The notes beneath the pieces were generated by a model that was not told the origin of the DNA, made no database searches, and worked only from the letters and a program-made list of their open reading frames with translations. The translations under genes and the position numbers were made by a program. A stretch of DNA of 64,000 nucleotides. Origin: Actinoplanes sp. KI2. Lineage in GTDB: Bacteria > Actinomycetota > Actinomycetes > Mycobacteriales > Micromonosporaceae. This document shows, piece after piece, positions 1 through 33,135 of the stretch. Numbering within the stretch: position 1 is the first letter of the stretch; every line of letters starts with the position of its first letter. The DNA lies in the NCBI RefSeq assembly GCF_025630775.1, contig NZ_JAOSZE010000006.1, positions 124,001-188,000 on the forward strand, in the 5' to 3' direction.

Positions 1-1878
1 CCGTTCCAGGACCGGATCGTCGCCTGCCTGCGCGACGGGCTGGCCGACCTGGCACACGACGACGGCGCCGAGATCACCGCCCGGGCGCTGCTGATCCGCC
101 AGCCGCGGATCTTCACCGAGGAGCCGGCCGTGGTGCCCCGGATCCGGGCCGGGCACACCATCGTCGTGCTCAACCAGCCGCCCGGCGACGAACGGCACGC
201 CCAGTGCTACTACGTCTTCGAGGAGGTACGCGCGCGGGTCGAGCGGCTGTTCGGCGACGCCGTCTGGGCCCCGATCAGCACCCAGGTGCGCGACAACGTC
301 CTGCAGGTCGCGCCCGGGATCGCGCTGCCGGACACCGACTGGCACGAGATCATCGACGTCGCCGACTGGCAGGTCGAGCACCGCCGTGAGCCCGGCGAGA
401 TCCCGGTGCTCGGCCGGCACGGCCGGCCCGATCCGGTGAAGTGGCCGCGCGACCCGGCCGAGCTGCTGCAGGCCTACCCGGACTCGCCCGACTTCAAGGT
501 GCGCATCCTCGGCGGGGGCGAGATCGGCGTACACCGGCTCGGCCGGCTGCCGCGGTCCTGGGAGGTGATCGAGTTCGGCGCCGAGTCGCCCCGCGAGTTC
601 CTGGCCGGGCTCGACTTCTTCGTCTACTTCCACGACCCGGACTGGCGCGAGGCGTTCGGCCGGACCATCCTCGAGGCGATGGCCAGCGGGGTGCCGGTGA
701 TCGTCGGGCCGCACTTTCGGGCGATCTTCGGGGACGCGGCGCTCTACTGCGAGCCGGCCGGCGTCCGCGAGGTGGTCCGCCGGCTGCACCACGACCGGGA
801 CGCGTACGACGACCAGGTCGAGCGGGCCCGCCGATTCGTGGCCGACCAGTTCGGCAGCGCCTCGCACGTCGCCCGGCTCGCCTCGCTCGGCGTCCTGCCG
901 CTGTCCCGGCCGCCGAGGGCGCTCGTCCGCTCCCGGGAGAAGCCCAAGGCCCGGCGGGTCCTCATGGTGGGCGACGACGTGGCCCGCTTCCGGGCGATCG
1001 CCCGGCGCCTGCCGAAGGGCCTCGAGGCGGTCGTGGTCGGCACCGCGAGCCTGGCCCAGGCACACGCCGCCGGCCTGCTCACCGAATACCTGCCGGGCGC
1101 CGCCGACCTGGGCGTGCCGCCGGCCCGCTGGCCCCGATTCGTCCGCGACCGGCTGCGCCACCTGGTCGAGCTGTACCGCCCGCGGGCCGTGCTGGTCGGC
1201 GGGCTGCCGCACGACGGGATCCTGGACGCGGTCCGGGAGAACCCGGCGACCCGATGGCTGTGGCTGCGCCCGGCGATGTGGCGGCGCGGCGCCGGCGGCG
1301 AGTGGGCGGCCCGCGGCCTCACCTTCGCCGGCATCCTCGAGCCCGGCGAGTTCGCGGCGGCCGGGGACGAGGGGTGGACCACCACCGCCCGGCACGGCGT
1401 GTCCACGGTGGATCCGATCATCGACCTGCCGGACCGGATCGCCCGCCGGGCCGGCGATCTGACGCTGCTCTGCCGAGGCGTCGAGGCCACCCTGCCCGGC
1501 TTCCGCGCCGTCGAGGCCACCGGGGCCGAGCTGGGCGAGGTCACCGTGGCCGTGTCGCGGGCCGACTACACCAACTTCCACGAGCTGATCAGCGCCCGGG
1601 TGCCGACCGTCTTCGTGCCCGACCCGGCGGCGCCGGACGACGAGCTGGCCCGGGCCCGGTTCGCGGCCGCCGCCGGGGTCGCCGCGTACGCCACTGACGA
1701 CGAGGCCGCCGCCACCGAGCTGGAGCGGCTCGCCGACCCGGCGGTCCGGGAGGCGCTGAGCCGGCGCTGCGCCGAGCTGTCGTTCGGCAACGGCGCCGGG
1801 GACGCGGCCGCCTGGCTCGCCGGCTTCACCCGGGAGGCCACATCTACCTGGGAGGGAAGGCGTGTCGGAAACCGATGA
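1..1878 (+). CDS. Two-domain glycosyltransferase, 5' partial
   Basis: The frame is open from base 1, so the 625 visible residues are the C-terminal part of a longer protein; the possible start at 130 is internal. The first ~300 residues resemble a GT-B family 4 enzyme, with the E-x7-E signature in EAFGRTILEAMASGVPVI (from base 649). The second half resembles a MurG/UGT-type GT-B domain. The full-length paralogue is at 5807-8074. Compared with it, this second domain lacks about six residues that contain the GMGHLTR glycine motif (near base 965) and about 48 residues further on (bases ~1400-1560), so only the first domain looks catalytic. It overlaps the next gene by 17 bases. Family assignment is by motif; donor and acceptor sugars are unknown. 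Confidence 0.8.
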   Translation, partial: PFQDRIVACLRDGLADLAHDDGAEITARALLIRQPRIFTEEPAVVPRIRAGHTIVVLNQPPGDERHAQCYYVFEEVRARVERLFGDAVWAPISTQVRDNVLQVAPGIALPDTDWHEIIDVADWQVEHRREPGEIPVLGRHGRPDPVKWPRDPAELLQAYPDSPDFKVRILGGGEIGVHRLGRLPRSWEVIEFGAESPREFLAGLDFFVYFHDPDWREAFGRTILEAMASGVPVIVGPHFRAIFGDAALYCEPAGVREVVRRLHHDRDAYDDQVERARRFVADQFGSASHVARLASLGVLPLSRPPRALVRSREKPKARRVLMVGDDVARFRAIARRLPKGLEAVVVGTASLAQAHAAGLLTEYLPGAADLGVPPARWPRFVRDRLRHLVELYRPRAVLVGGLPHDGILDAVRENPATRWLWLRPAMWRRGAGGEWAARGLTFAGILEPGEFAAAGDEGWTTTARHGVSTVDPIIDLPDRIARRAGDLTLLCRGVEATLPGFRAVEATGAELGEVTVAVSRADYTNFHELISARVPTVFVPDPAAPDDELARARFAAAAGVAAYATDDEAAATELERLADPAVREALSRRCAELSFGNGAGDAAAWLAGFTREATSTWEGRRVGNR

Positions 1879-2464
1879 CCTGTCGCTGGCCCGCTGGGAG
1901 GTGGCGACGCTGACCGGCCGCCTGCGCTGGCTGGAGGCCGAGCGGGACGCCGCGGTCGAGGACCGGGATCGGCATCAGCAGCAGGCGGCGACCCTGCGGG
2001 GCAGCCCGTCCTACCGGCTCGGGCGGGCGCTGGTCGAGCTGGCCCGGCACCCGGTGGGAGTCGCCGGCCGGGCGGCCCGGCGCATCCGGCACGGCCGGCG
2101 GCCGCCACCACGCCGTCGGCCGCCGGTCGGCTCGGTGCCGGCCCTGGTCTACGTCGCCGTCGGTCTCGACGGCGCCGCCTCGCACGCGCTGGTGCGGGCG
2201 TTGCGGCAGCGGATCGTGGTGGACGGCGACCACCTGCCGGTGCTGGTCACCGACCAGCCGGAGCTGCGCGGTCTGCAGGTGCCGGGCGTGGTGCTCGAGT
2301 ATCTGCCCGACCCGGAGACGTGGCGACGGCACGATCCCGGCGCCGGCTGGGAGGCGATGCTGGCCGGGCGGATCGCTCAGCTCTGCCGCGACCACGGCGC
2401 GGCCGGCACGGTGGTGATCGACCCCCGGGACCCGCCCACCCTGGCACGCCTGCTGAGTAACTGA
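1862..2464 (+). CDS. Coiled-coil/alpha-beta partner protein of the glycosyltransferase
   Basis: A 200-residue protein of unknown function. The GTG start at 1862 is preceded by a strong purine-rich ribosome binding site (GGGAGGGAAGG, 1850-1860) and lies inside the end of the glycosyltransferase gene, so the two are translationally coupled. Residues ~1-45 are charged and heptad-like (coiled coil), followed by a SYRLGRAL motif often seen in polysaccharide proteins, an Arg-rich linker, and a C-terminal ~105-residue alpha/beta region (LVYVAVGLD to the end). A paralogue at 8076-8747 sits in the same position behind the second glycosyltransferase. The conserved pairing suggests that it docks or scaffolds the enzyme; this is inference. 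Confidence 0.8.
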   Translation: MSETDDLSLARWEVATLTGRLRWLEAERDAAVEDRDRHQQQAATLRGSPSYRLGRALVELARHPVGVAGRAARRIRHGRRPPPRRRPPVGSVPALVYVAVGLDGAASHALVRALRQRIVVDGDHLPVLVTDQPELRGLQVPGVVLEYLPDPETWRRHDPGAGWEAMLAGRIAQLCRDHGAAGTVVIDPRDPPTLARLLSN

Positions 2465-2490
2465 CCGCGCGGCGGCCTCGTTGGCGCGGT

Positions 2491-4062
2491 GTGACCGTCG
2501 TCGTCCCGAGGCCGCGGACCGCGATGCGCTTCGTCGTCGCCCGGCCGCCGATCGGCTTCCTCTGGCGGCGCGCGTTGCTGCGGGCCGCGTTGGCGCCGCT
2601 GGTCGTGTTGGCACCGATCGTGGCGCTCGCGCCGACCGCCGACCACAAGTACAACGTGTACTGGCACGGTGGACTCTTCCGGGACGACCCGCTGCGGATC
2701 GTCCCGGACACGCTCGACTCGTTGCCGAGCTACCTGCGCAACGGCAACTTCCGGCCACTCGGGCGGATGCTGGAGAAGCTGGTCGACCTGGCCGCGTACG
2801 CGCTCGGCGAGGTCGGCGTGCCGGCCAACGTCGGCCTGCGCGTCGTGTCGATCGCCGCGGCGATGCTGCTCGGGGTGGCCGTCCTGGTGCTGGCCGAGAG
2901 CGTGGTGGCCCGCGGCCGGCTGTTCCGCGCCGAACCGTCCACGGTGGCCGCGGTGGCGCCGTTCGCGTTCGCCGCCGGCCTGGTGGCGGCCGGCCGGTCG
3001 AGCCCGGTGGTGCTGTTCGGCGGCCTGTACTTCACGACCGCCGCGGTGGTGCTGCTGGTGGCGGCGGCGATCGCGCGGATCGGCCGGATCCGGGCCTGGC
3101 AGCTGCCGCTGCTGGTGGCGGCGGGCGCCGCGCTGGCCGCCTTCAACGAACTCACCTACCTGACGCTGCCCCTGGCCACGGTCGCGGTGGCGGCGCGCGG
3201 CCGGTGGGTGCTCGGCCAGGCCTGGCGGCGGATCGGCACGGCCGCGCCCGCCCGCGCGCTCGGCGCCCTCGGGCTGGGCTTCCTGCCGGTCTTCGGCACG
3301 GTCCGGCTGGTCATCAAGTCCTACTGCGACACCGGCCCGTGCTATCCCGCCTCCGACGTCGCCCTCGGCTCCGCGGTGGCCAAGACCTTTCCGGTACGCC
3401 TGATCGCGTGGTTTCCGCCTCTGGAGTGGCAGAGCGCGGTGCGCGGCGGCGGGGCGCTCTCCGGCCTGACCCTGGCCCTGGCGCTGGCCGCCCTGGCCGC
3501 GCTCGCCTGGACCGCGCTGCGTGACCTGCGCCGGCTCGGCGCCCTCGGCCGGCCCGCCGCCGCGGCCCTGGTGGTGGTCGCCCTCGCCCTGGTCGCGCTC
3601 GGCGCCGGCCTGGCCGCGCTGAGCGCCGACGTGCAGCACTTGGTGGCCGCGCACCGCTGGGGGCAGGGCTGGCGGGACACCGCGGTCGTCGCGCCCGGCG
3701 GCGCCCTGCTGCTGGCCGGCGCCGCCCACCTGGCCGGGCCGCGCCGGGTGCTGCTCGGCGGTCTGATCGCCGTGCTGGTGGCCGGGTGCGCGGTCACCGC
3801 CACGGTGAACAAGCGCTTCCGGGACACGATGCTGCAATCGCCGGTCGCGCGGCTCGACGACCGGCTCGCCCAGGAGGTCGCCGACTTCGATCCGACCCCG
3901 GCCGGTGCGGCCCGCCGCTGCGCGCTGCGCACCGAGTTCCTCGCGCTCAACCCGGGCGGCCGGACGCCGGCCCGGCGCTTCGACGTCTCCTTCGATGCGG
4001 CCGCCCGGCAGCGGGCCGGGCAACCGTTCTGCCCCGTAACCGGCTCGGGGCAAGGGCGTTGA
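2491..4062 (+). CDS. Polytopic membrane protein, possible GT-C-like glycosyltransferase
   Basis: A 523-residue membrane protein with about ten hydrophobic segments. The first loop after TM1 carries DHKYNVYW and, further on, NGNFRPLGRMLE, both kept in the paralogue at 10829-12355. The C-terminal ~85 residues follow the last TM and should face outside, with a conserved RRCAL and a terminal FCP cysteine; another Cys pair (CDTGPC) lies in a mid-protein loop. An acidic residue just after TM1 in a long first extracytoplasmic loop is typical of lipid-linked-sugar GT-C enzymes, so that fold is proposed as inference only. The start is GTG 2491; ATG 2524 is an alternative and neither has a good ribosome binding site. 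Confidence 0.82.
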   Translation: MTVVVPRPRTAMRFVVARPPIGFLWRRALLRAALAPLVVLAPIVALAPTADHKYNVYWHGGLFRDDPLRIVPDTLDSLPSYLRNGNFRPLGRMLEKLVDLAAYALGEVGVPANVGLRVVSIAAAMLLGVAVLVLAESVVARGRLFRAEPSTVAAVAPFAFAAGLVAAGRSSPVVLFGGLYFTTAAVVLLVAAAIARIGRIRAWQLPLLVAAGAALAAFNELTYLTLPLATVAVAARGRWVLGQAWRRIGTAAPARALGALGLGFLPVFGTVRLVIKSYCDTGPCYPASDVALGSAVAKTFPVRLIAWFPPLEWQSAVRGGGALSGLTLALALAALAALAWTALRDLRRLGALGRPAAAALVVVALALVALGAGLAALSADVQHLVAAHRWGQGWRDTAVVAPGGALLLAGAAHLAGPRRVLLGGLIAVLVAGCAVTATVNKRFRDTMLQSPVARLDDRLAQEVADFDPTPAGAARRCALRTEFLALNPGGRTPARRFDVSFDAAARQRAGQPFCPVTGSGQGR

Positions 4063-4071
4063 GGTGGTGTG

Positions 4072-5082
4072 ATGATGAGCCGTTTGCGGAAACTCAACCG
4101 CCGCCAGGCGACCGTGCTGGCCGCCGCGGCCGTGCTCGGCCTAGCGGTGGTCGGCAGCGCGCTCACCGGGCAGCTCGGGCTCGCGCTCGGCCTGCTCGGG
4201 ATCTTCCTCGCCGGGACGGTCGCCGGCCTGCTGTTCGTCCTGCACCGGCTGGCTCAGCTGTTCGCGCTGCAGCGGACGCACCAGCGGGACGTCCGGAAGG
4301 TGCTCGACCACACCCAGCGCCGGCTGCTCGGCGCCGTCGAGGAGATGCTGCTGACCGCCGGCGACCGGCACCGGGAGATCACCGACAAGCTGGCCGCACA
4401 GCAGAGGGGCTCGGCCAACGGTGTCGACCGGCTGCTGCGCGCGCAGACCGCCGAGGTGGAGGCGCTCTTCCAGCTGTTCGACGGGTTCACGCCGCGGGCG
4501 CCGATGCCGTCCTCGGGCGGGTTCGCACTCAACCCGACCGACCTGCTCGACGTGCTGCACCTGGTGCAGACCCGCCGGCCGAAGCTGGTGCTGGAGCTGG
4601 GCAGCGGCACGTCGACGGTGTGGATCGCGTACGCCCTGCAGAGGTGCGGCGGCCGGCTGGTGTCGCTCGACCACGACCCCGGATACGCCGAGAAGACCCG
4701 GGCGATGCTGGCCGCGCACGGCCTCACCGAGGTGGCCGAGGTGCGGGACGCCCCGCTGCGACCGGTGCTGCTCGACGGCCGCAGCTTCCCGTGGTACGAC
4801 ACCGACGCGGTGACCGACCTGGACGGGGTGGACATGCTGCTGATCGACGGTCCGCCGGAGAAGACCGGGCCGGACGCCCGCTACCCGGCGATGCGGGTGC
4901 TCGAGGACAAGCTGGCCGACGCGGCCACGGTGGTCTTCGACGACGCGCACCGCAAGGACGAGCAGCAGGCGCTGCGCAAGTGGGTGGAGACGATCGGAGG
5001 CCTCACCGAAGAAGGTGAGGCCCCCGGGCGGCATGCCGTGCTGTCCTACCGGCGCGTGGTGCGCCAGATGGCGGCGCAATGA
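4072..5082 (+). CDS. Membrane-anchored class I SAM-dependent methyltransferase
   Basis: About 336 residues. The N-terminus has two hydrophobic helices (residues ~12-60), then a basic, heptad-rich stretch, then a Rossmann methyltransferase of the Methyltransf_24 type: motif I LELGSGTSTVW (~residue 178), the acidic motif II end in SLDHD, motif III region DMLLIDGPP and a late VVFDDAH. The substrate is unknown; its place in the polysaccharide locus suggests sugar or lipid-carrier O-methylation. Starts at 4069 (GTG), 4072 and 4075 (both ATG) are all possible; GGTGG at 4063 best fits 4075. The gene runs tail-to-tail into the CAP gene with one base between stop codons. Confidence 0.82.
   Translation: MMSRLRKLNRRQATVLAAAAVLGLAVVGSALTGQLGLALGLLGIFLAGTVAGLLFVLHRLAQLFALQRTHQRDVRKVLDHTQRRLLGAVEEMLLTAGDRHREITDKLAAQQRGSANGVDRLLRAQTAEVEALFQLFDGFTPRAPMPSSGGFALNPTDLLDVLHLVQTRRPKLVLELGSGTSTVWIAYALQRCGGRLVSLDHDPGYAEKTRAMLAAHGLTEVAEVRDAPLRPVLLDGRSFPWYDTDAVTDLDGVDMLLIDGPPEKTGPDARYPAMRVLEDKLADAATVVFDDAHRKDEQQALRKWVETIGGLTEEGEAPGRHAVLSYRRVVRQMAAQ
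4999..5022 (-). terminator. Perfect hairpin inside the methyltransferase 3' end, likely terminator of the convergent CAP gene
   Basis: GGCCTCACC (4999-5007) and GGTGAGGCC (5014-5022) form a perfect 9-bp stem with a 6-base loop. It lies inside the coding end of the methyltransferase but only ~62 bases downstream of the stop of the minus-strand CAP gene, where a terminator for that gene is expected. There is no T-run, as is common in actinomycetes. Confidence 0.4.
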
Positions 5083-5083
5083 C

Positions 5084-5572
5084 TCAGTAGCCGAACTCCT
5101 GGGTGAAGTACGGGGTGCCGCTCTTCGCGTACACCGTGCCGGCGCCGATCGTGGTGGCCTTGCAGTTGAGGATGTTGGCGCGGTGCTCGGGGCTCTTCAT
5201 CCAGGCCGTCACCACGGCGGCGCCGGTGCGGTAGCCGTACGCGATGTTCTCGCCGGCCGGCTGCTTGTAGCCCGCCGCCTTCTGCCGGGCCACGAAGGTG
5301 GATCCGCCGCTGCCGGTGTGGCTGAACGCGCCGGTCTTGGCCATGTAGGCGCTGTGCACCCGGGCCGCCTTGGTCAGCCGCGCGTCGAGGTGCAGCGCCT
5401 TCTTGCAGCCGTTGGCGACGCGCTGCTTGTTGGTCAGGTAGACGATGTCGCCCTGCAGCTTGGTCTCGCTCACCACCGCAGCGTTCGCCGGCGTCGCAAC
5501 CGCGACCAGGCCGAGCATGGTGGCGGGGATCATGGCGATCAGGGCCAGACGCTTGGCGATCTTGGTGCGCAT
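5084..5572 (-). CDS. Secreted CAP (SCP/PR-1 type) domain protein
   Basis: A 162-residue exported protein. A Sec signal peptide (basic N-terminus MRTKIAKR, hydrophobic core, ANA cleavage site near residue 31) precedes a CAP domain with bacterial family hallmarks: TNKQRVANGCKKALHLDARLTKAARVHS, later GENIAYGY, and SPEHRANILNC. Two cysteines may form a disulfide. It starts at ATG 5572 with AAGGGAG just upstream. CAP proteins act extracellularly and their biochemical role is often unknown. The gene points away from the second glycosyltransferase unit and is probably expressed alone from the 234-base intergenic region. Confidence 0.9.
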   Translation of the reverse strand: MRTKIAKRLALIAMIPATMLGLVAVATPANAAVVSETKLQGDIVYLTNKQRVANGCKKALHLDARLTKAARVHSAYMAKTGAFSHTGSGGSTFVARQKAAGYKQPAGENIAYGYRTGAAVVTAWMKSPEHRANILNCKATTIGAGTVYAKSGTPYFTQEFGY

Positions 5573-5806: not shown

Positions 5807-8074
5807 GTGCCCGTGACCGTCCATGACGTGGCGATCCTTTCCGACTTCCGCTACCCCGGGGGCACCTCGGCCAGCATCGCGGCGGAGGTGCAGGCGCAGG
5901 CCGAGGCCGCGCTCTCCACCGTCCTGGTGCACGTGCCGTCGCCGCACCAGCCCAAGACCCTGCCGTTCAGCCCGCGGATCAGCGAGCTGCTGCGGGACGG
6001 GATGGCCACGCTCGCCCGTCAAGATGGGCCTTCAGTCGATTCAAGGGCGGCGGCGGGGTGGTCGGACGGGGAGCCGATCGAGTGCAAGCTGCTGCTCATA
6101 CGCCAGCCGCGGATCTTCACCGAGGACCTGGCCGTCCTCCCGCGCATCCGCGCCGAGCGGGTCGTCATGGTGATCAACCAACCGCCCGGCGACGCCGGCA
6201 ACCCGTTCCGCTACTACGACTTCGCGGCGGTACGCGACCGGGTGCACCGCTACTTCGGCCCGCGGGTGGAGTGGGCGCCGATCAGCTCCCAGGTGCGCGA
6301 CCAGGTGCGCCACGTCGAGCCCGACGCCCGGCTGGCCGGCGCCGACTGGCACGAGATCATCGACGTGGCGCACTGGTGGCGGGACCGGGACGGCTTCGTC
6401 GGCGACGTGCCGGTGATCGGCCGGCACGGGCGGGCCGACGCGGTGAAGTGGCCGCGCGACCCGGACGAGATCCTGCGCGCCTATCCGGCGACCGACGACT
6501 TCCGGGTACGCGTGCTGGGCGGCGGCGAGATCGCGGTGCGCCGCCTCGGTCACCGGCCGGACAACTGGGACGTGGTCCCGTTCGGTGCCGAGTCGCCCGA
6601 GGAGTTCCTGCGCACCATCGACTTCTTCGTCTACTTCCACGACCCCGACCTGGTCGAGGCGTTCGGCCGGACCATCCTCGAGGCGATGGCCAGCGGCGTC
6701 CCGGTCATCATCGGCGAGCACTTCCGGCCCACCTTCGCCGGCGCCGCGCTCTACGGCACGCCGGCCGACGTGCCCGGCCTGGTCCGCGAGCTGTACGCCG
6801 ACCCGGCCCGCTACCGCGCGGTGGCCGGCCGGGCCCGTGAGTTCGCCGAGCACCGGTACGGCCACCAGTCCCACCTGACCCGGCTGGCCACCCTCGGCAT
6901 CCGGCCGCGCATCTCGCCCTCGGCCGCCGACCGGCGGGTCCTGCCGGCGCCTGAAGTCTCCGCGCCGTCCGCCGGATCGGGCGCCCGTGGCGACACCGCC
7001 CGCCGGGTTCTCATGGTCAGCGACAACGGCGCGGGCATGGGCCACCTCACCCGGCTCATGGCTATCGCCCGGCGGCTGCCCGACGGCCACTCCGCGGTGA
7101 TCGCCACCCAGTCGTACGCGGCCTCGGTCGCCCACGGCGAGGGCTTCCTCACCGAGTACATCCCGTCCCGCAAGGTGTTGCAGGCCGCGCATCCACGGTG
7201 GACCGCCCTGCTGCGCGACCGGCTGGCCCACCTCATCGACCTGCACGAGCCGGCCGTGGTCGCGGTCGACTGCCTGCCGCACGCCGGGATCGTCGAGGCG
7301 GTTCGCGACCACCCCTGGCTGATCTGGGTGTGGGTGCGCCGGGCCATGTGGCAGCGTGGCGTCGGCGTCGACTGGATCACCGAGGGCAAGGTCTTCGACC
7401 ACGTGCTCGAGCCGGGCGAGTTCGCCGCCGTGGTCGACGAGGGCCCGACGGTCGCCGACCGGCCCCGGGCCGTGCAGGTCGAGCCGATCACGTTTCTCGA
7501 CGAGAGCGAGCTGCTGACCCGGGAGGCGGCCCGGACCGAGCTCGACCTGGACGACCGGCCCGCCGCCCTGCTGCAACTGGGCGCCGGCAACATCAACGAC
7601 ATCTCCTCGCCGACCGCCCGGATCTGCCGGCACCTGACCGAGCGCGGCTTCCAGCTGGTGCTCGCCGAGTCGACGATCGCGACCACCCCGCTGCCCCGGA
7701 TCGCCGGTGTCAAGGTGGTGAAGCTCTACCCGGTCAGCCGCTACCTGCGGGCGTTCGACCTCACGGTCAGCGCGGCCGGCTACAACTCGTTCCACGAGCA
7801 GATCGGCTTCGGCATCCCCACGGTGTTCCTGCCGAACGCCGCGACCCGGCTCGACGACCAGGTCGGCCGGGCCCGGTTCGCGGCGGCCACCGGGGTGGCA
7901 CTCAGCGTCGAGGACCCGTCCACCGGGGAGCTCGAGGAGGTGCTCGACCAGGCCGCCCGGCCGGAGGTGCGGGCCGGGCTCGTGCACCGCTGCCGGGAGC
8001 TGACATTCGAGAACGGCGGCGGCGCGGCCGCCGCGTGGCTGAGCGGGCTGCGGTCCCGCCGACACGGAGGCTGA
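5807..8074 (+). CDS. Two-domain glycosyltransferase (GT4-like plus MurG/UGT-like)
   Basis: A 755-residue, probably cytoplasmic protein with two complete GT-B domains. Domain 1 starts with SDFRYPGGTSASIAAE (donor-side loop of GT4 enzymes) and has EAFGRTILEAMASGVPVI near residue 283. Domain 2 starts near residue 400 with SDNGAGMGHLTR, the glycine-rich acceptor/lipid-side motif of MurG-like enzymes, followed by LQLGAGNIND (~residue 589) and a GYNSFHE...PTVFLP donor-site block. Two transfer activities on one chain could add successive sugars to a lipid-linked or surface glycan. Start GTG 5807 has AGGGAGA seven bases upstream. It is the intact paralogue of the gene at 1-1878; substrates are not predictable. 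Confidence 0.85.
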   Translation: MPVTVHDVAILSDFRYPGGTSASIAAEVQAQAEAALSTVLVHVPSPHQPKTLPFSPRISELLRDGMATLARQDGPSVDSRAAAGWSDGEPIECKLLLIRQPRIFTEDLAVLPRIRAERVVMVINQPPGDAGNPFRYYDFAAVRDRVHRYFGPRVEWAPISSQVRDQVRHVEPDARLAGADWHEIIDVAHWWRDRDGFVGDVPVIGRHGRADAVKWPRDPDEILRAYPATDDFRVRVLGGGEIAVRRLGHRPDNWDVVPFGAESPEEFLRTIDFFVYFHDPDLVEAFGRTILEAMASGVPVIIGEHFRPTFAGAALYGTPADVPGLVRELYADPARYRAVAGRAREFAEHRYGHQSHLTRLATLGIRPRISPSAADRRVLPAPEVSAPSAGSGARGDTARRVLMVSDNGAGMGHLTRLMAIARRLPDGHSAVIATQSYAASVAHGEGFLTEYIPSRKVLQAAHPRWTALLRDRLAHLIDLHEPAVVAVDCLPHAGIVEAVRDHPWLIWVWVRRAMWQRGVGVDWITEGKVFDHVLEPGEFAAVVDEGPTVADRPRAVQVEPITFLDESELLTREAARTELDLDDRPAALLQLGAGNINDISSPTARICRHLTERGFQLVLAESTIATTPLPRIAGVKVVKLYPVSRYLRAFDLTVSAAGYNSFHEQIGFGIPTVFLPNAATRLDDQVGRARFAAATGVALSVEDPSTGELEEVLDQAARPEVRAGLVHRCRELTFENGGGAAAAWLSGLRSRRHGG

Positions 8075-8075
8075 C

Positions 8076-8747
8076 GTGAGCAACGTCAAGATGCCCGACC
8101 GGCCCGTGGCGCTGGACGCGCCCGAGCGGGCCCGCTGGGAACTGGCCGCGATGGCCGGCCGGATGCGCACGCTGGAAGCCCGGCTCGCCGAGGAACAGCA
8201 GAGCGCCGAGGCCGCGCGCAAGGAGCTCGACCGCGAGCGGCGCCGGTTGGAACGGCTGCGGCACAGCGAGTCCTATCGCCTGGGCTTCGGGCTGGTGTCG
8301 CTGGTCAAGGACCCGGTGCACACCGTGCCGCGGGTGAGCCGGGCGGTCCTGCGCCGGCTGCGTGGCCGGCGCCGGGGCCGATCCGACGCCGACCGCCAGG
8401 TGCCCTCGGCCGCGCAGCGACCGCCCACCCACCTGTACGTCGCGATCGGCCTGGACATCGCGGCGGTCCGCGAGTTCGTCCTGACCCTCCGGCAGCGCCT
8501 GCTGGTGAACCCGGACCACCGCCCGGTGGTGGTGACCGACTGCTCGTCGTTCGCGCTGCTCCGGGACCTCGGCGTGCTGATCGAGTACCTGCCGGACCGG
8601 GCCACCTGGGACCGGCACCGCCCGGACCGGCCCTGGGACGGCATGCTCACCAAGCGCCTGAACCGCCTGTACCGGGACCACGACACGGCCCGCACCATCA
8701 TCGTGGACGCCGCCCAGCCGCCCACGCTGGCCGACCTACTTCGTTGA
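8076..8747 (+). CDS. Coiled-coil/alpha-beta partner protein, second copy
   Basis: A 223-residue paralogue of the protein at 1862-2464. The N-terminal ~75 residues are strongly charged with Glu/Arg heptads (LEARLAEEQQSAEAARKELD), then SESYRLGFGLV, a basic linker of Arg/Gly residues, and a conserved C-terminal domain (LYVAIGLDIAA... IEYLPDRATWDRH... DAAQPPTLADLL). It begins one base after the glycosyltransferase stop with GGAGG upstream, so it is co-translated. Its end overlaps the convergent acyltransferase gene by 12 bases. Function unknown; the strict pairing with the glycosyltransferase in both copies argues for a physical partner. Confidence 0.82.
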   Translation: MSNVKMPDRPVALDAPERARWELAAMAGRMRTLEARLAEEQQSAEAARKELDRERRRLERLRHSESYRLGFGLVSLVKDPVHTVPRVSRAVLRRLRGRRRGRSDADRQVPSAAQRPPTHLYVAIGLDIAAVREFVLTLRQRLLVNPDHRPVVVTDCSSFALLRDLGVLIEYLPDRATWDRHRPDRPWDGMLTKRLNRLYRDHDTARTIIVDAAQPPTLADLLR

Positions 8748-10775: not shown

Positions 10776-10828
10776 GCCCGACCAACGCTCGTTCGCAACT
10801 TTGGACTCGGTGCGGTCGTTCCTCTTTC

Positions 10829-12355
10829 GTGACCGCCGAGATCGTGGAAGTGCCACATCAAGCCGGATCGACGGCCGTCCGCGAGCCTGCTGCCCCGGCC
10901 GTGCACCGGCCGTGGCGGGCGCTGCTGCGGCGGTGCCTGCTGGCCCCGCTGGTGGTGCTCGCGCCGCTGGTCACGCTCACCTTCTCGGCCGACCACCGGT
11001 TCAACGTCTACAACAACGGCGGCCAGTACGCGACGCACCCCTGGCGGCTGTTCGAAACGGCCGTGGCCACGGTTCCGCCGTATCTCGCCCTCGGCAACTT
11101 CCGTCCGCTCGGCCGGATGCTGGAGTGGTCGCTCGACGTGGCCGCGTTCGCACTGACCGCGCTGTTCGGCGTGCCGGCCACGATCGGTCTGCGGGTCATC
11201 TCGTTCGTGGCCGCGATCCTGCTGACCCTGGCGGCCGTGGCGTTCGCCGAGGCGGTGGTCGCCCGGCGGCGCCGGCTGTTCGCCGGGTCGCCGTCGGTGA
11301 CCGCCGCGCTGCTGCCGTTCGCGGTCGCGGCCGGGTTGGTGGCGGCGGGCTGGCTGAGCACCACCGTGCTGTTCGGCGGGCTCTACCTGACCACCAGCGC
11401 GCTCGTGCTCGGCGTCGCGGCCTGGGCCTGCCGGGCGCGCCGGGCCGGGGTGCTCGTCGTGCTGGTGGGGGCCGGGCTGGCCGCCTTCAACGAGCTTGCC
11501 TGCCTGGCGGTGCCGCTCGCGACCGTCGCGGTGCTGCTGCGCGGCCGGGTCGTGCTCGGGCTCGACTGGCGGCGGGTGCTGCGCGGGACGCCGGCCCGGT
11601 TCGCGGGCCTGCTCTGGGTCGGCTTCCTGCCGGTCTTCGTGCCGGTCCGCCTGATCATCCGGCAGCGGTGCGCGAGCGGCGGGTGCTACGTGGGCTCGGA
11701 CATCGCGTACGGGGGAGCGGCCGCGGCCCTGCCCGGCCGGATGCTCTCCTGGCTGCCGCCGCTGATGTGGCCGCGGGCCGCCGGCGGCGAGTTCCCGCAC
11801 CTGGCCGCCGCCGTCCCGGCGATGGCCCTGATCGCGCTGGCCGTGCTGGCCTGGCGGGCGCTGCGCGGGCTGCGGTCGCTGCCCACCCTCGACGGCCGGC
11901 AGTCGGCCGCGCTGGCCGGCGTGGCGGTCGCTCTGCTGGTGCTGGCCGGTGCGCTGGCCGCGCTCAGCGCCGACGCGCAGCGCCTGCCGGTCGGCGGCGG
12001 CTGGCGCGACAGCGGGCTCACCACGGTGGCCGGGAGCGTGCTCGTGCTTGCCCTGTGGCGGCGCTTCGTCGTGGTGTTGCTGGTTCTGCTGGTGGTCGCC
12101 GGAACCATCTCGGCGGCGGCCAACAAGGACTTCCGGGACGCCTCCGCCGGCGGACGGTTCCCGTACCTCTACGACCGGATCGCGCAGGAGGTGGCCGGCT
12201 TCGACCGGACGCCGGCCGGCGACGCCCGCCGCTGCGCCCTGCGCGCCGCCTTCAAGAAGGTGAACTTCTCTAATGTGGAGCGTTTCGACGTGAGTCTCGA
12301 TCGGGCCACCCGGCTGCTGGACGGCCGCCGCTTCTGCAGCCGGGCGCCGCGATGA
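10829..12355 (+). CDS. Polytopic membrane protein, second copy (possible GT-C-like)
   Basis: A 508-residue paralogue of the protein at 2491-4062, with about ten hydrophobic segments. Shared landmarks are ADHRFNVYNNGG after TM1, LGNFRPLGRMLE, a mid-loop Cys pair (CASGGC), and the C-terminal tail with QEVAGFDRTPAGDARRCAL and a final FCSR. Start GTG 10829 lies 53 bases from the preferred start of the divergent acyltransferase. Its stop overlaps the next start as ATGA (12352-12355), so it forms an operon with the GtrB/GtrA-like pair. A role in polymerising or transferring sugar from polyprenyl-phosphate carriers outside the membrane fits the neighbours but is inference. Confidence 0.83.
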   Translation: MTAEIVEVPHQAGSTAVREPAAPAVHRPWRALLRRCLLAPLVVLAPLVTLTFSADHRFNVYNNGGQYATHPWRLFETAVATVPPYLALGNFRPLGRMLEWSLDVAAFALTALFGVPATIGLRVISFVAAILLTLAAVAFAEAVVARRRRLFAGSPSVTAALLPFAVAAGLVAAGWLSTTVLFGGLYLTTSALVLGVAAWACRARRAGVLVVLVGAGLAAFNELACLAVPLATVAVLLRGRVVLGLDWRRVLRGTPARFAGLLWVGFLPVFVPVRLIIRQRCASGGCYVGSDIAYGGAAAALPGRMLSWLPPLMWPRAAGGEFPHLAAAVPAMALIALAVLAWRALRGLRSLPTLDGRQSAALAGVAVALLVLAGALAALSADAQRLPVGGGWRDSGLTTVAGSVLVLALWRRFVVVLLVLLVVAGTISAAANKDFRDASAGGRFPYLYDRIAQEVAGFDRTPAGDARRCALRAAFKKVNFSNVERFDVSLDRATRLLDGRRFCSRAPR

Positions 12356-13317
12356 GCCCGCTGGTGTCGGTGGTCGCGCCGATCTACAACGAGGGCCCGG
12401 GCGTCGACCGCTTCGTGCACCGGCTCGGCCAGGTGCTCGGCGAGGCCGGGCTGCGGTACGAGCTGGTGCTGGTCGACGACGGCTCGGCGGACGACTCGTG
12501 GGTCCGGATCGTCCAGCACACGCTCGCCGACGACCGGGTCCGCGGCATCCAGCTGTCGCGCAACTTCGGCAAGGAGCCGGCCGTGCTGGCCGGGCTCGAG
12601 CACGCGGCCGGCGACGTGGTCGTGGTCATCGACTCCGACCTGCAGCACCCGCCGTCGGCCATCCCGGCCATGGTGCAGCGCTGGCGGGACGGCGCGCACG
12701 TGGTCGAGGCGGTCAAGCGCAACCGGACCGGGCAGGGCCTGATCGGCCGGCTCGGCGGCCGGCTGTTCAACCGGGCCTTCACCGGGCTCACCAAGGTGGA
12801 TCTGGTCAACGCCACCGACTTCCGGCTGCTCAGCCGCCCGGCGCTGGACGCGTTGCTGCTGCTGCCCGAGCACTCGTCGTTCTTCCGGGGCACGTCGAGC
12901 TGGATCGGCTTCCGGCGGACCACCGTGGAGGTGGACATCGACCAGCGGGAGGGCGGGGCGTCCCGGTGGACGTTCGGCGCGCTGTTCCGGCTCGCGGTCA
13001 ACGGCCTCACCTCGTTCACCTCGGCGCCGCTGCACCTGGTGACGCTGGTCGGGCTGGCCTTCGCCGGGTTCTCGGTGCTGCTCGGGGCGCAGACGCTGAT
13101 CCGCTGGGTGCGTGGCGGCTCGCTGGCCGGCTTCCCCACCGTGATCCTGGTGCTGCTGGTGATGGGCACGTTCGTGCTGCTCGGGCTGGGCGTGATCGGC
13201 GAGTACCTGGCCCGCATCCACGAGGAGGTCCGGGGCCGGCCGCGCTACCTGGTGCAGGAGAAGTCGGCCCGGGCGGTGGCTGAGGTTCCCGAACAGCTGG
13301 TCGCGGACCGCAAGTGA
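12352..13317 (+). CDS. GT2 polyprenyl-phosphate glycosyltransferase (GtrB/DPM type)
   Basis: A 321-residue GT-A enzyme. Visible motifs: SVVAPIYNEG at the start, VDDGSADDSW, LSRNFGKEPA, the metal-binding DSDLQHPP, and the acceptor-side DFRLLSRPA. Two C-terminal TM helices (residues ~228-285) end in GEYLARIHEEVRGRPRYLV, the usual tail of this family. It should transfer a hexose from a nucleotide sugar to undecaprenyl or decaprenyl phosphate on the inner leaflet. It overlaps the upstream membrane-protein gene by four bases and the GtrA gene downstream by four, giving the classic GtrB-GtrA pairing next to a candidate outer-leaflet transferase. Confidence 0.92.
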   Translation: MSPLVSVVAPIYNEGPGVDRFVHRLGQVLGEAGLRYELVLVDDGSADDSWVRIVQHTLADDRVRGIQLSRNFGKEPAVLAGLEHAAGDVVVVIDSDLQHPPSAIPAMVQRWRDGAHVVEAVKRNRTGQGLIGRLGGRLFNRAFTGLTKVDLVNATDFRLLSRPALDALLLLPEHSSFFRGTSSWIGFRRTTVEVDIDQREGGASRWTFGALFRLAVNGLTSFTSAPLHLVTLVGLAFAGFSVLLGAQTLIRWVRGGSLAGFPTVILVLLVMGTFVLLGLGVIGEYLARIHEEVRGRPRYLVQEKSARAVAEVPEQLVADRK

Positions 13318-13748
13318 CCTTCGTGCGGGAGGCCGCGCTGTCCCGGATCGCTCGCCTGCTCCGCTACGCGGTCAGCGGCGGCGCCAGCGCCTGCACCCAC
13401 TTCGGCGTCGGCCTGGCGCTGACCGAGGGCCTGCGCGTCCGCCCGGTCGCGGCCTCCACCGCCGGCTTCGTGGCGAGCATCGTCGTCTCTTACGTTCTGC
13501 AGCACGCCTGGGTGTTCCGCTCGGCCGCCGGTCACGCCGTGGCCGGGACCAGGTTCCTCGCCGTGACGGCGGCCGCCTTCGCGCTCAACACGATCGTGCT
13601 CGGGGCCGGCACCGAGGTGCTGCACGCGCCCTATCCGATCGTGCAGGCGGTCGCGCTGCTCGCCATCCCGGTCCTGAACTACTCGCTGAATTCCCGCTGG
13701 ACCTTTCGTCCGGCGCCCGATCATCGCCCGCTCGAGACCGAACGTTAG
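13314..13748 (+). CDS. GtrA-family membrane protein
   Basis: A 144-residue protein with four TM helices, carrying GtrA landmarks: LLRYAVSGGASA near the start, FVASIVVSYVLQHAWVF in the middle, and the C-terminal LNYSLNSRWTFR. GtrA proteins are thought to help move polyprenyl-phosphate-linked sugars across the membrane. The GTG start overlaps the GtrB stop as GTGA, so translation is coupled. It is the last gene of the plus-strand run and is followed at once by a hairpin. Confidence 0.9.
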   Translation: MTFVREAALSRIARLLRYAVSGGASACTHFGVGLALTEGLRVRPVAASTAGFVASIVVSYVLQHAWVFRSAAGHAVAGTRFLAVTAAAFALNTIVLGAGTEVLHAPYPIVQAVALLAIPVLNYSLNSRWTFRPAPDHRPLETER

Positions 13749-13751
13749 CGG

Positions 13752-13785
13752 CCCTCCCCGCCGCGGTGAGCGGCGGCAGCGAGGG
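13752..13785 (+). terminator. Hairpin terminator after gtrA-like gene
   Basis: CCGCCGC (13758-13764) pairs with GCGGCGG (13770-13776) around a 5-base loop, and outer CCCTC/GAGGG arms extend it. It begins four bases after the stop codon and has no T-run. In the rest of the 190-base gap, CCGCC-TTGGTA-GGCGG (13868-13883) may end the convergent dehydrogenase transcript. Confidence 0.55.
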
Positions 13786-13938
13786 TGACCGGGTGCCTGG
13801 CTCGGCCCGCCCTCGTTGCAGCTCAGCCCGGATGGTGGCGGCACCGGGTCGGGACGGCAGCCAGGCCGCCTTGGTAGGCGGGGACCCGGCTCAGCCTCGT
13901 ACGGGCAAATGAACTTGAACTGGAAGTTGACGGCCGGG

Positions 13939-15201
13939 CTAGAGACGATGCGCTTCGCGGGCCGTGGTGACGCCGCGGGTGTCGAAGAAGCGCTTCGCGA
14001 TCCGGGCCAGGTGGTCGGCGTCGTACTCGCGGTGCTGCTGCACCAGGATCACCAGGTCGGCCGAGGCGACCGCGCCCTCCAGGTCTTCGGTGCGGGCCAC
14101 CTCGACGTCGTCGACGGACCAGGACGTCACGTGCGGGTCGTGGTAGAGCACGGTCGCGCCGAGCTGGGCCAGCTGGCGGGCCAGCGGGGTGGCCGGCGAC
14201 TCCCGCTGGTCGGCGATGTTCGCCTTGTAGGTGACGCCGAGCAGCAGCACCGTGGCGCCGTGCACGGCGTGGCCGTCGGCGTTCAGGAGGTTCTGCGCAC
14301 GCCGGGCGACGTAGCTCGGCATGGTCGCGTTGATCTCCTGGGCCAGCTCCACGAAGCGGAACGGGTAGCCGAGCTTGCTGCGGACGTTGTGGGACAGGTA
14401 GTTGGGGTCGATCGGGATGCAGTGCCCGCCGACGCCGGGGCCGGGGTAGAAGGCCTGGAACCCGAACGGCTTGGTCGAGGCGGCGCGGATCACGTCCCAC
14501 AGGTCGATGTTCAGCTCGTGGCAGAACCGCGCCATCTCGTTGACCAGCGCGATGTTGACGTGCCGGTAGGTGTTCTCCAGCAGCTTCGCGGTCTCCGCCT
14601 CACGGGTGCCCCGGGCGCGGACCACGGTGTCGATGAACCGGCCGTAGAAGGCGGCCGCATGGTCGGCGCAGCCGCTGGTGTAGCCGCCGACCACCTTCGG
14701 AGTGTTCTGCGCGCCGAACCGCTCGTTGCCCGGGTCGATGCGCTCGGGCGAGAAGGCCAGGTGGAAGTCGATGCCGGCGGTCATCCCGGAGAGCGTCTCC
14801 AGCAGCGGCCGGACCACCTCGTCGGTGGTGCCGGGGTAGGTGGTCGACTCCAGCACGACCAGCATGCCGGGGCGCAGGTTGCGGCCGATCGCCTCGGTGG
14901 CGCCGATCACCGCGCTCAGGTCCGGGCCGTCGCCCTCGGCGAGCGGGGTGGGCACGCAGATGACCGCGGTCTCGGCGGTCGCGATCTGCGCTTCGTCGGT
15001 CGTGGTGCGGAAGCCGCCGGCCACCATCGCGGCCACGTCGGCGTCGCTGAGGTCGTCGACGTGCGAACGGCCGGCGGCCAGCGAGCCGACCACCCCGGGG
15101 TTGACGTCGAAGCCCAGCACGCTCATGCCGACCCGGGTGGCTTGCTGTGCGAGCGGAAGCCCGACGTACCCGAGGCCCAGCACTACAACATCAAAACTCA
15201 C
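13939..15201 (-). CDS. UDP-sugar 6-dehydrogenase (UDP-GlcNAc/ManNAc dehydrogenase type)
   Basis: A 420-residue nucleotide-sugar dehydrogenase. The NAD-binding GLGYVGLPLA is at residues ~9-18, the substrate region has ESTTYPGTTDEV and FSPERIDPGNE, and the catalytic cysteine is in GVGGHCIPIDP (~residue 253). YKANIADQRESPA belongs to the UDP-binding C-terminal domain. The overall pattern is closer to WecC/WbpA-type UDP-HexNAc dehydrogenases than to UDP-glucose dehydrogenase. It would make a UDP-hexosaminuronic acid, giving an acidic surface polymer. Start GTG 15201 has GAGAGGA six bases upstream. It follows the Stealth gene on the same strand with a 54-base gap. Confidence 0.85.
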   Translation of the reverse strand: MSFDVVVLGLGYVGLPLAQQATRVGMSVLGFDVNPGVVGSLAAGRSHVDDLSDADVAAMVAGGFRTTTDEAQIATAETAVICVPTPLAEGDGPDLSAVIGATEAIGRNLRPGMLVVLESTTYPGTTDEVVRPLLETLSGMTAGIDFHLAFSPERIDPGNERFGAQNTPKVVGGYTSGCADHAAAFYGRFIDTVVRARGTREAETAKLLENTYRHVNIALVNEMARFCHELNIDLWDVIRAASTKPFGFQAFYPGPGVGGHCIPIDPNYLSHNVRSKLGYPFRFVELAQEINATMPSYVARRAQNLLNADGHAVHGATVLLLGVTYKANIADQRESPATPLARQLAQLGATVLYHDPHVTSWSVDDVEVARTEDLEGAVASADLVILVQQHREYDADHLARIAKRFFDTRGVTTAREAHRL

Positions 15202-15255
15202 GAAAAATCCTCTCGAAAGGTACAGGAGATGGCCGGCTTCGGGGCGGGCTGTGCG

Positions 15256-17073
15256 TCAGGCGCGCGTGGCGTCGGGGGTGGACGGCTGGGCCGGCAGCGG
15301 GATGTCCGGGTGCGCCGGGGCCGGGCGGGGCGTGCTCTGCCGCCCGACCACCGGCGTACCCGTCGCCGGTCTTGCCGAGCGCGGCGTGATCAGCTCGTAC
15401 GGGGAGGGGAACGGCAGGAAGGCGGGCAGGAACTCGGCCAGCAGCACCGCCTGCTCCCGGGCCGCCTCGGCCGACGAGTCGGTGTCGTTCAGGCAGAACG
15501 CGTCCATGTGCCGGTCGTGCAGCACCCGCGCCAGCCGCATCGGCGTCGCCGGGTCGGCCAAATCGGTGTACATGTACTTGATATCGCCGGGCGCGGCCCG
15601 TCCGGTCAGGTACGCGTAGTACTGCTGCAGCGACGACAGCAGCGAGATGTCGTCGGGGTGCCGGAACTGATGGCTCGCCGTGGCGGTCACCTGCTCGGTG
15701 AAGCGCAGCTCGATCTCGGCCAGCACGCTGCGCCGCGACGGGTGCGGGGTGTGCTTCATCTTGCGGGTCAGCACCCGGCCGAAGGCCTGCTGGATGAGCC
15801 GCCGATTGTTCTTGCCGGCCGAGTTCGCCGGCGGGTCGGTGGGCTGCCGGGGCGCCGAGTCGACCAGCGCGCCGGAGGGGAAGAACCGGGTCAGCCCGCC
15901 CGGCGTGAAGAACATCTCCGGCGGCGCCGGCCGGGCCAGGAAGACGTCGTCGTTGAGGTAGAGGAAGTGCTCGGACAGCCCCGGGATCCGGTGCAGCCGC
16001 GACTCGATGGCCTGCGAGTTGAAGGTCGGCAGCCGGCCGGTGTCGCCGAAGATCTCCCGATGGCTCACCACGGTCAGGTCCGGCCGGGTGGTGTCCAGCC
16101 AGTCCGGCACCTGGTCGGCGGTGACCAGGAAGATGTGCCGCACCCAGGGCGCGAAGGCGTGCAGCGCGCGCAGCGAGTAGCGCAGCTCGTCCCGGGAGGC
16201 GAACCGGGAGTCGTTGGCGGACTGCTCGCTGACCTCGGCGACCCAGCCGTTCTCGCGCAGCGCGGCGGCCTTGCGCTCGCGCCAGACCGGATCGCCGCCG
16301 TCCACCCAGGTGTAGACCACGTCGATCGGGAATGCGACCCGATCGGGGCTGACCATCGTGAAGATCTCATAGGTGCGGTACGAGGCCGGGTCGACCGGGG
16401 AGCTGAACGAGCCGAAGACCGACTCGGGCGCGTCCACGATCGGCTCGCCGGCCGGCACCACGTCGGCGACCGGGTTGCTGCGCGGCCCGACGAGATTGCC
16501 GTCCACGGTCTTCCAGAACTCGATCTCGCAGCCGTACTCCGGCCCGAACACGAGGGTGCCGCCCGGATCGGTCACCGGGCGGCTCAGCCGCAGCACCTCG
16601 GCCCGCCGGCGGGCGCTTCGCCCCGACCGGCCGGCCGGCCGCACCACTTCCAGCAGGGCGTCGTCGTTGGCGCTGAGCGTTTCGAGCAGGCCGATCACCT
16701 GCGGGCGGTCCTCTTCCCGGACGGCGACGGCCGAGCCGGTGAGCGAGTCGACCGGCACCCGGAACCACTCCAGATCCGCGGCCTGCAGGGCGGTGACGAT
16801 GCGGTCGAGGTTCTCCCGGCGTACGCCCGCCGGGGTTGCCCGGTCGGTCACCCGGGCCGTCACGCCGAGCCCACCACCCTTGAACGGGCCGAAGCGCGCC
16901 AGGCCGCCGGCCCGGCCCCGGCGCCCGGCCGCGTCGGCCAGCGGGACCAGCCGTCGTGCCGTGGCCAGCCGGCGCTCGGCCGGCAGATAGCGCAGCAGCT
17001 TGTGCTGCATCCCGGCCATCAGGCGGCGCCGCACCGGCCAGGGAGTGTGTCGCAGGATCCGCCGTAGGGGCAC
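15256..17073 (-). CDS. Stealth-family capsular polysaccharide sugar-phosphate transferase
   Basis: A 605-residue protein with all four Stealth conserved regions: IDVVYTWVDGGDPVW (CR1, ~residue 250), ELRYSLRALHAFAPWVRH through LPTFNSQAIESRLHRI and FLYLNDDVF (CR2, ~300-375), MKHTPHPSRRSVL (CR3, ~443), and HQFRHPDDISLLSSL (CR4, ~477). Residues 1-240 are a variable N-terminal domain. The family makes hexose-1-phosphate linkages in capsules and is related to GlcNAc-1-phosphotransferase. With the adjacent dehydrogenase it suggests a phosphodiester-linked acidic polymer. The start is ATG 17073. Confidence 0.9.
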   Translation of the reverse strand: MPLRRILRHTPWPVRRRLMAGMQHKLLRYLPAERRLATARRLVPLADAAGRRGRAGGLARFGPFKGGGLGVTARVTDRATPAGVRRENLDRIVTALQAADLEWFRVPVDSLTGSAVAVREEDRPQVIGLLETLSANDDALLEVVRPAGRSGRSARRRAEVLRLSRPVTDPGGTLVFGPEYGCEIEFWKTVDGNLVGPRSNPVADVVPAGEPIVDAPESVFGSFSSPVDPASYRTYEIFTMVSPDRVAFPIDVVYTWVDGGDPVWRERKAAALRENGWVAEVSEQSANDSRFASRDELRYSLRALHAFAPWVRHIFLVTADQVPDWLDTTRPDLTVVSHREIFGDTGRLPTFNSQAIESRLHRIPGLSEHFLYLNDDVFLARPAPPEMFFTPGGLTRFFPSGALVDSAPRQPTDPPANSAGKNNRRLIQQAFGRVLTRKMKHTPHPSRRSVLAEIELRFTEQVTATASHQFRHPDDISLLSSLQQYYAYLTGRAAPGDIKYMYTDLADPATPMRLARVLHDRHMDAFCLNDTDSSAEAAREQAVLLAEFLPAFLPFPSPYELITPRSARPATGTPVVGRQSTPRPAPAHPDIPLPAQPSTPDATRA

Positions 17074-17622: not shown

Positions 17623-19185
<1,563 letters not shown>

Positions 19186-32867: not shown

Positions 32868-32884
32868 GTCCCGTTCTTGCTGGT

Positions 32885-32996: not shown

Positions 32997-33135
32997 CGCG
33001 TTGCGGCGCTCTCTGGCGCCGCCGATTTCTGTCGTACCCCCGCCCTACGGTCGAACCATGACCAGCCGCCCGGCGCACCCGGCCGTTCCCGCGCCCGCTC
33101 GCCCTCGTCGGCCCGCCGTCGCTCCCGGCCGTGAC

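Follow-up and report, generated by a model that had tools for sequence, protein, structure and literature searches.

Near the start of the window (the whole analysed stretch of 64,000 nucleotides from Actinoplanes sp. KI2), genes for a tandem glycosyltransferase (GTF), a coiled-coil protein (CC) and a polytopic membrane protein (MP) occur twice in the same order: GTF1-CC1-MP1 (gene ends at 1878, 2464 and 4062) and GTF2-CC2-MP2 (5807–12355), the latter with an AT3 acylase gene on the opposite strand between CC2 and MP2. The first-pass annotation described this order correctly, although not the start of the first copy, which it placed at position 1, GTF1 beginning 150 bases before the window. 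It also took the triplet for a functional unit. The question is whether GTF, CC and MP indeed form one complex that was duplicated as a block, or whether they belong to parts of the locus that can be separated.

The locus fills the interval between glnD and ffh (SRP54; 17623–19185, plus strand) of Actinoplanes, with ffh as the downstream limit and the locus start some 6 kb before position 1 of the window. The annotated surface-glycan character of its content is supported; its limits had to be moved upstream, where two GT2-GT4 proteins, with a methyltransferase between them, are encoded toward glnD. MP1 is followed by a Methyltransf_24 methyltransferase (4069–5082, plus strand; hydrophobic N-terminus by reading), paralogous to the upstream one. 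MP2 is followed by GtrB, GtrA, a UDP-HexNAc-type 6-dehydrogenase (13939–15201, minus strand; nearest solved structure, Cap5O) and a Stealth protein of the sugar-1-phosphate transferase type (15256–17073, minus strand). The earlier list of these genes was correct but incomplete, as it overlooked a CAP-domain (SCP/PR1-like) protein (5084–5572, minus strand; signal-peptide-like N-terminus by reading), which is encoded in the glnD-ffh interval of 51 of 64 genomes. The Stealth protein resembles Stealth/CpsY sugar-1-phosphate transferases in regions CR1–CR4 (four Pfam regions, all above cut-offs) and in having CpsY as the nearest solved structure, but differs in its partner genes; its gene lies in this interval in all 64 mapped Actinoplanes-type genomes. 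Pfam (E ≤ 0.001) gave none of the locus proteins a Wzx/Wzy, ABC-2 or initiating-transferase match, in contrast to Wzx/Wzy or ABC-exported polysaccharide loci with their exporter and initiating transferase. The genome as a whole, however, has seven initiating transferases (PF02397), which are encoded on other contigs, and 23 matches to PF01061 (ABC-2), one of them at window positions 59970–60419.

The paralogy of the two copies, proposed earlier from shared motifs, is confirmed by global identities of 54.4% (GTF), 45.7% (CC) and 51.7% (MP), which are far above chance (z = 71, 28 and 50, respectively; 100 shuffles each). The two methyltransferases (41%) and the two GT2-GT4 proteins (42%) are further paralogous pairs, and a third MP paralogue is situated on another contig, with none of the locus families found within 28 kb of it. 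In the trees, which are quick ones with SH-aLRT support only and no true root, the copies form deep clades with the same 21 genomes in both. A recent tandem duplication is hence rejected; judged from the trees, the duplication of GTF, CC and MP is old, and the copies appear to have been inherited vertically. In the same trees MP2 groups with MPs of single-copy loci and not with MP1, and MP1 and MP2 each cluster with a different single-copy type. Loci with a single copy are present, for example, in A. missouriensis 431 and A. teichomyceticus. The CC tree does not include G159, G161 and G179, where an antisense ORF over CC stood in for CC, while separate searches find CC in all three.

The AT3-SGNH O-acyltransferase (8736–10856, minus strand) had been interpreted as inserted into copy 2. 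This interpretation is not retained, because eight single-copy loci share the CC-acylase-MP order, with the acylase at the same position, and MP2 groups with their MPs. Of the 21 doubled genomes, 13 have a decayed GTF2 and have lost both MP2 and the acylase.

Across the mapped genomes, gtB, GTF and CC are all-or-none, being present in 48 of 64, and GtrB/GtrA accompanies MP in 46 of 47 MP-bearing loci vs. none of the 17 others. These presence counts come from clean queries, which avoid the false MP, GTF and gtB matches caused by over-extended ORFs. Within the MP module, no gtrB was found in G142, G151 and G152 (in G138 there is just a fragment of it) and gtrA was not found in G123, G133, G140 and G162; G123 and G140 also have one stop within the MP match. 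Of the 58 locus copies of MP, 37 adjoin gtrB or gtrA; MP1 of the doubled genomes does not. Three loci of 64 contain MP and GtrB/GtrA without GTF/CC (G090, G128 and G056, the last one cut by contig ends), and three contain GTF-CC without MP (G136, G172, G178). The locus thus contains two separable modules, gtB-GTF-CC and MP-GtrB-GtrA.

A true three-gene unit would fit several of these observations. When 67 whole genomes were searched, 48 had both MP and CC, three MP only, three CC only and 13 neither, so that the two occur together in 48 of the 54 genomes with either; moreover, in all 21 doubled genomes MP1 is situated between CC and the methyltransferase, MP thus adjoining CC in each copy-1 unit. 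The independent occurrence of the families, suggested earlier as evidence against the unit, is therefore seen only as exceptions to a strong linkage. However, these exceptions go in both directions (leaving aside the truncated G056), each module is also found alone outside the genus, MP1 and MP2 have different single-copy relatives, and the second MP is absent from 13 of the 21 doubled genomes. We therefore regard a single complex duplicated as a block as quite improbable, and prefer the reading with two modules.

Each module was also found once on its own in a genome from outside the genus: the MP and GtrB/GtrA trio without GTF/CC in a Nitriliruptoraceae MAG (L246), and the GTF-CC pair without MP or other genes of the Actinoplanes locus in a genome of another family (G394). 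A family-wide search with MP2 as the sole query found MP in 5 of 121 genomes, counting the present one, and all five belong to its genus, one of the 44 genera covered. A scan of named genomes gave 37 loci, 36 of them in Actinoplanes, Paractinoplanes, Jidongwangia or Couchioplanes and one in the Nitriliruptoraceae MAG; it relied on two peptide patterns, and absence in it is weak evidence. The class-wide search with the CC profile matched 5 of 246 genomes (own included), and three of the four non-self matches span only profile positions 26–114 (the coiled coil and beyond), probably by chance.

In the second module, GtrB (12352–13317, plus strand; PF00535) is of the polyprenyl-phosphate sugar synthase type and matches the glycosyltransferase sll0501 in phmmer (E = 1e-61), and GtrA (13314–13748, plus strand) is of the polyprenyl-phosphate-sugar flippase type (PF04138, 75.4 bits vs. 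a cut-off of 26.1). MP1 (523 aa; 2491–4062, plus strand) and MP2 (508 aa; 10829–12355, plus strand) match nothing in Pfam or NCBIfam nor, by sequence, in PDB. The predicted fold of MP2 is GT-C according to structure prediction and VIA-align, which only re-ranks the list from Foldseek, Foldseek alone giving no match at E ≤ 0.001 for MP or CC. Invariant residues of MP2 are D55, F91-R92, G95-R96, E99, FNE 220–222 and C281/C286; D55, which closely follows the first helix, is conserved without exception in 58 sequences. In predicted fold MP is similar to the GT-C superfamily (ArnT, AftB/AftD, PimE, STT3/PglB), and D55 is a candidate for the catalytic aspartate that such enzymes have in their first outer loop, but MP lacks a sequence match to a solved structure and its activity is putative. 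The predicted GT-C fold makes an outer-leaflet system of GtrB, GtrA and a GT-C enzyme likely; this prediction, together with MP presence tracking GtrB/GtrA, supports the first-pass proposal that an outer-leaflet transferase works with GtrB/GtrA. Three-component glycosylation systems include GtrA/GtrB/Gtr(type) and CsbB-GtcA-YfhO. There, as here, a polytopic GT-C-like transferase is encoded together with a GtrB-type GT2 and a flippase of the GtrA type, but the Actinoplanes transferase is not recognized by sequence in Pfam, NCBIfam or PDB, and its trio lies within a larger locus beside a tandem-glycosyltransferase module.

In that module, GTF2 (755 aa; 5807–8074, plus strand) has kept the motifs of both its GT4 domain (about 5807–6901) and its GT28/YjiC-like domain (about 7013–8041). 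GTF1 (675 aa; 1–1878 in the window, plus strand) has a GT4 domain and a GT28-like second domain without the GxGH and LGAGNIND loops, both missing in 22 of 22 copies. These stretches would be ligand-binding loops. In GTF1 one domain thus retains its motifs and the other has lost the two loops, so that this copy appears to be missing half of its catalytic apparatus. Among solved structures, the second domain matches YjiC, other UDP-glycosyltransferases and SsfS6 ahead of MurG. Such a likeness to natural-product glycosyltransferases, together with the GTF-CC pair standing in G394 without the rest of the locus, would be expected if the GTF/CC module glycosylated a small molecule or lipid and not a wall polymer. 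However, all 48 mapped genomes with GTF/CC carry the Stealth gene in the same interval, and Pfam reveals no biosynthetic core gene among the window's locus proteins; we consider this alternative very improbable and retain a glycan role for the module.

Among relatives, the GTF motif table shows stepwise loss of loops and of entire subdomains. In the 13-genome clade lacking MP2, motifs of both GTF2 domains are lost and GTF1 is decaying too. Complementary degeneration, where each copy would keep a different domain, is suggested by alignment coverage but rejected by this pattern. The stepwise loss, and a GTF dN/dS somewhat above that of gtA (0.18–0.29), might mean that copy-1 GTF and both GTFs of the 13-genome clade are functionless, decaying leftovers. 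This is unlikely, as none of the 69 GTF rows has an internal stop and, despite the decay, dN/dS is 0.17–0.44, close to the values of gtB (0.27–0.39) across the same set of pairs, six in all. In a reading that is possible but less likely than not, CC proteins are GT-B N-lobes that became detached, sit on a coiled-coil membrane anchor and complete or regulate a two-domain glycosyltransferase, and since the old duplication the GTF lineage has turned stepwise into pseudo-glycosyltransferases: by half in GTF1 of the window, and in both domains of both copies in 10 of the 13 genomes without MP2. Purifying selection would preserve these proteins as scaffolds or regulators for the transferases that remain. 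If so, the series would document in nature how an active enzyme becomes a pseudoenzyme, a course correlated with the loss of the outer-leaflet partner. The comparison of GTF decay with MP loss comprises three independent contrasts (sign test, p = 0.25), G136 being an exception, with the states (intact or decayed, MP or no MP) assigned by hand on a 44-row tree without G159, G161 and G179.

CC1 (200 aa; 1862–2464, plus strand) has a coiled-coil-like N-terminus, a SYRLG segment and a detached GT28-type N-lobe, its fold being predicted for CC2 (223 aa; 8076–8747, plus strand): a helix at residues 15–62, two shorter helices and a Rossmann half-lobe from residue 118. The CC2 model is moderate (pLDDT 76.9, pTM 0.46), and other Rossmann proteins score as well as GT-B ones. 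Profile comparison shows this lobe to be homologous to the second glycosyltransferase domain of GTF (hhalign E = 8e-7 with the GT28-like N-half and 1.3e-5 with the entire GTF; best among 200 shuffles, 0.0071). Neither CC1 nor CC2 matches a Pfam family, that of Alg14 included, at E ≤ 0.001, and solved structures give one weak match (E = 0.0024, coiled-coil part) besides chance-level ones. Split glycosyltransferases are known in the Alg13/Alg14 type, and CC similarly bears only the N-lobe of a GT28-type GT-B domain. Unlike in Alg13/Alg14, however, the GT28-like domain of the partner GTF2 is itself complete, with both lobes, CC has a long coiled-coil-like helix, and no separate Alg13-like C-lobe protein was found by Pfam among the locus proteins. 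CC would probably serve to dock GTF to both the membrane and its acceptor.

What the locus encodes, which of its genes occur together, the old age of the paralogy, the loss of motifs and the homology of CC with GTF are shown here; combined with the predicted folds of MP and the CC lobe, they make it reasonably probable that the glnD-ffh interval is a cell-surface glycan locus. Its core would comprise the GT2-GT4 proteins, methyltransferase, dehydrogenase and Stealth protein and, in most genomes, the CAP protein and AT3 acylase. Of the two modules, both accessory to this core, gtB-GTF-CC would work on the cytoplasmic side; across the membrane, GtrB would put a sugar on polyprenyl phosphate, GtrA would flip the linked sugar, and MP, as a GT-C enzyme, would move it onto the outside glycan. 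The ligands of the lost GTF1 loops, the donor and acceptor sugars, the sidedness, the docking by CC and the glycan itself are at the level of inference.

For MP, a membrane family unnamed in Pfam and NCBIfam, this suggests a probable function as a GT-C transferase dependent on polyprenyl-phosphate sugar, and for its equally unnamed small partner CC, a predicted fold. Two separable modules are defined in an interval that bears Stealth in 64 of 64 mapped Actinoplanes-type genomes, and the relatives present a series of tandem glycosyltransferase motif loss under continued selection. The function of pseudo-glycosyltransferases thereby becomes directly testable in cultivable soil actinomycetes.

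The window (contig C158, 124001-188000) lies in a 10.06-Mb genome of the Actinoplanes type, and the doubled order of tandem glycosyltransferase (GTF), coiled-coil protein (CC) and polytopic membrane protein (MP) described in the first-pass annotation is indeed present, at 1-4062 (GTF1, CC1, MP1) and 5807-12355 (GTF2, CC2, MP2), the start of GTF1 being 150 bases upstream of the window. An AT3-SGNH acylase gene on the opposite strand separates CC2 from MP2. Alignments between the paralogues span almost the full proteins, with 362 of 666 aligned residues identical for GTF, 91 of 199 for CC and 259 of 501 for MP. Left out of that description were a CAP-domain protein (5084-5572) and the upstream genes of the same locus, between the window and glnD, which encode two GT2-GT4 proteins with a methyltransferase between them; the two GT2-GT4 proteins are a paralogous pair (42% identity), as are the two methyltransferases (41%). 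The downstream edge of the locus is ffh. A third MP paralogue is encoded elsewhere in this genome (L018:11923-13554), where its neighbours are a protein carrying discoidin and glycosyl hydrolase 64 domains and a peptidase of the thermolysin type.

All 67 genomes of the genus have ffh. The sequence 5' of it, to a maximum of 40 kb and less on shorter contigs, was compared in 64 genomes including our own (G132, G154 and G170 were left out). Both glnD and ffh were on one piece in 54 of these; in the other ten, contig ends intervene or no glnD was recognised. The core of the interval consists of the genes for the Stealth protein (64/64), the dehydrogenase (63/64), the GT2-GT4 protein (62/64 by locus listing, 59/64 under a stricter count), the methyltransferase (59/64), the CAP protein (51/64) and an acylase (49/64), and to this core other loci add gtB, GTF and CC, and/or MP, gtrB and gtrA.

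Counted with clean queries, all six of the latter genes were found in 36 of the 64 genomes and none in 13; gtrA was the sole absentee in four, gtrB in three, and both were missing, with a gtrB fragment left, in one. MP, gtrB and gtrA occurred without gtB, GTF and CC in three genomes, one of which (G056) is cut by contig ends, although no CC turned up in it genome-wide. Conversely, gtB, GTF and CC occurred without the other three in four genomes, including G146, whose locus is broken across contigs, with MP fragments located on one outside the mapped stretch. Thus, gtB, GTF and CC are present or absent together, and MP accompanies GtrB and GtrA. The whole-genome search of the 67 genomes yielded MP in 51 and CC in 51 (together in 48, MP alone in three, CC alone in three, neither in 13, as counted from the listed rows). 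Outside the genus, each module was seen apart once. In a Nitriliruptoraceae MAG (L246), MP (39-40% identity), GtrB (57-61%) and GtrA (60%) are adjacent, with no GTF or CC match in 13 kb; in G394, from another family of the same class (L209/L251), a full GTF (38-43%) precedes a CC-like protein (29-30%), and 16 kb of sequence gave no MP, GtrA or GtrB match.

The first-pass observation is confirmed in part. GTF, CC and MP, earlier taken for one three-gene unit, are more plausibly assigned to two modules, and a surface-glycan locus in which the core is joined by gtB-GTF-CC and MP-GtrB-GtrA is, with fair probability, the best explanation as a whole. Among the 58 MP genes of the loci, 37 adjoin gtrB or gtrA; the remaining 21, one MP1 gene from each doubled genome, lie between CC and the methyltransferase gene, and this position slightly lowers our confidence in that explanation. 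The proposed outer-leaflet transferase logic is supported by the predicted MP fold and by the co-occurrence with GtrB/GtrA.

In G138 (L170-L171), MP is followed by a gtrB fragment only; this copy of the outer-leaflet module may be broken. The block from gtB through GTF, CC, MP and gtrB to gtrA is inverted whole relative to glnD and ffh in G160 (L190-L191, where it also holds AT3 between CC and MP) and G165 (L152-L153), an arrangement suggestive of a unit able to move or flip in one piece. The interval takes up unrelated cargo too: nine genomes carry an inserted AraC-type regulator, maleylacetate reductase/dioxygenase-like fusion and FAD monooxygenase (names read from the sequences, with no profile search), for example between gtrA and the dehydrogenase gene in G121 (L122-L123), and two further genomes have part of this set.

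The nearest relatives are Cap5O and a UDP-ManNAcA dehydrogenase for the dehydrogenase, sll0501 for GtrB and CpsY for the Stealth protein; a search across the family at E <= 1e-30 detected Stealth in 42 of 121 genomes and 11 of 44 genera. Our genome has seven PF02397 and 23 PF01061 matches; products of other loci may start or export the polymer. One of the PF01061 matches, an ABC-2 type membrane domain, sits at 59970-60419 within a long open reading frame, some 40 kb away from the locus. The window also contains a tandem-repeat cluster (32876-35142; periods 8, 15/30, 16, 23 and 45), near GntR-like (33265-33906) and DprA-like (36152-37390) ORFs, both named from their sequences.

In the GTF and CC trees, copies 1 and 2 form separate clades with the same 21 genomes in each and, judged by eye, alike branching. 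The single-copy Jidongwangia (G140) groups with the copy-1 clade (SH-aLRT 100 for GTF; 98 for CC, on a long branch). In the MP tree, MP1 groups with Jidongwangia, and MP2 with single-copy MPs whose loci also have the CC-acylase-MP order. By these groupings, in quick trees with a single type of support value and no true root, the duplication of GTF-CC-MP is old. The acylase had been regarded as inserted into copy 2; given the MP2 grouping, its position is not new there, being shared with those single-copy loci. MP is present in both copies in only eight of the 21 doubled genomes, ours included; the other 13 also lack the acylase in the interval.

All 22 copy-1-type GTFs miss both the GxGH and LGAGNIND stretches of the second domain. 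Among the 47 type-II GTFs, 32 are intact and 15 decayed, the latter comprising 13 second copies from doubled genomes plus the lone copies in G172 and G178. An own MP accompanies 31 intact type-II GTFs (including that of G146, whose MP is only on the contig outside the mapped stretch) and none of the decayed ones; it is absent for one intact (G136) and all 15 decayed. On a tree of 44 of the 47 rows, this association comes down to three independent contrasts, all in one direction, so significance is out of reach (p 0.25). In these 13 doubled genomes, the GT4 motifs of GTF1 are changed or lost in ten, kept in G133 and G153 and nearly kept in G162.

None of the 69 GTF rows contained an internal stop. 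In six pairs from the 13-genome clade, dN/dS (NG86) was 0.17-0.44 for GTF, compared with 0.27-0.39 for gtB, 0.18-0.29 for gtA and 0.04-0.14 for ffh, and by this comparison the decayed GTFs remain under purifying, somewhat relaxed selection. The most unusual features of the locus are the predicted detached GT-B lobe in CC and GTFs that have lost motifs step by step while their genes are retained by selection.
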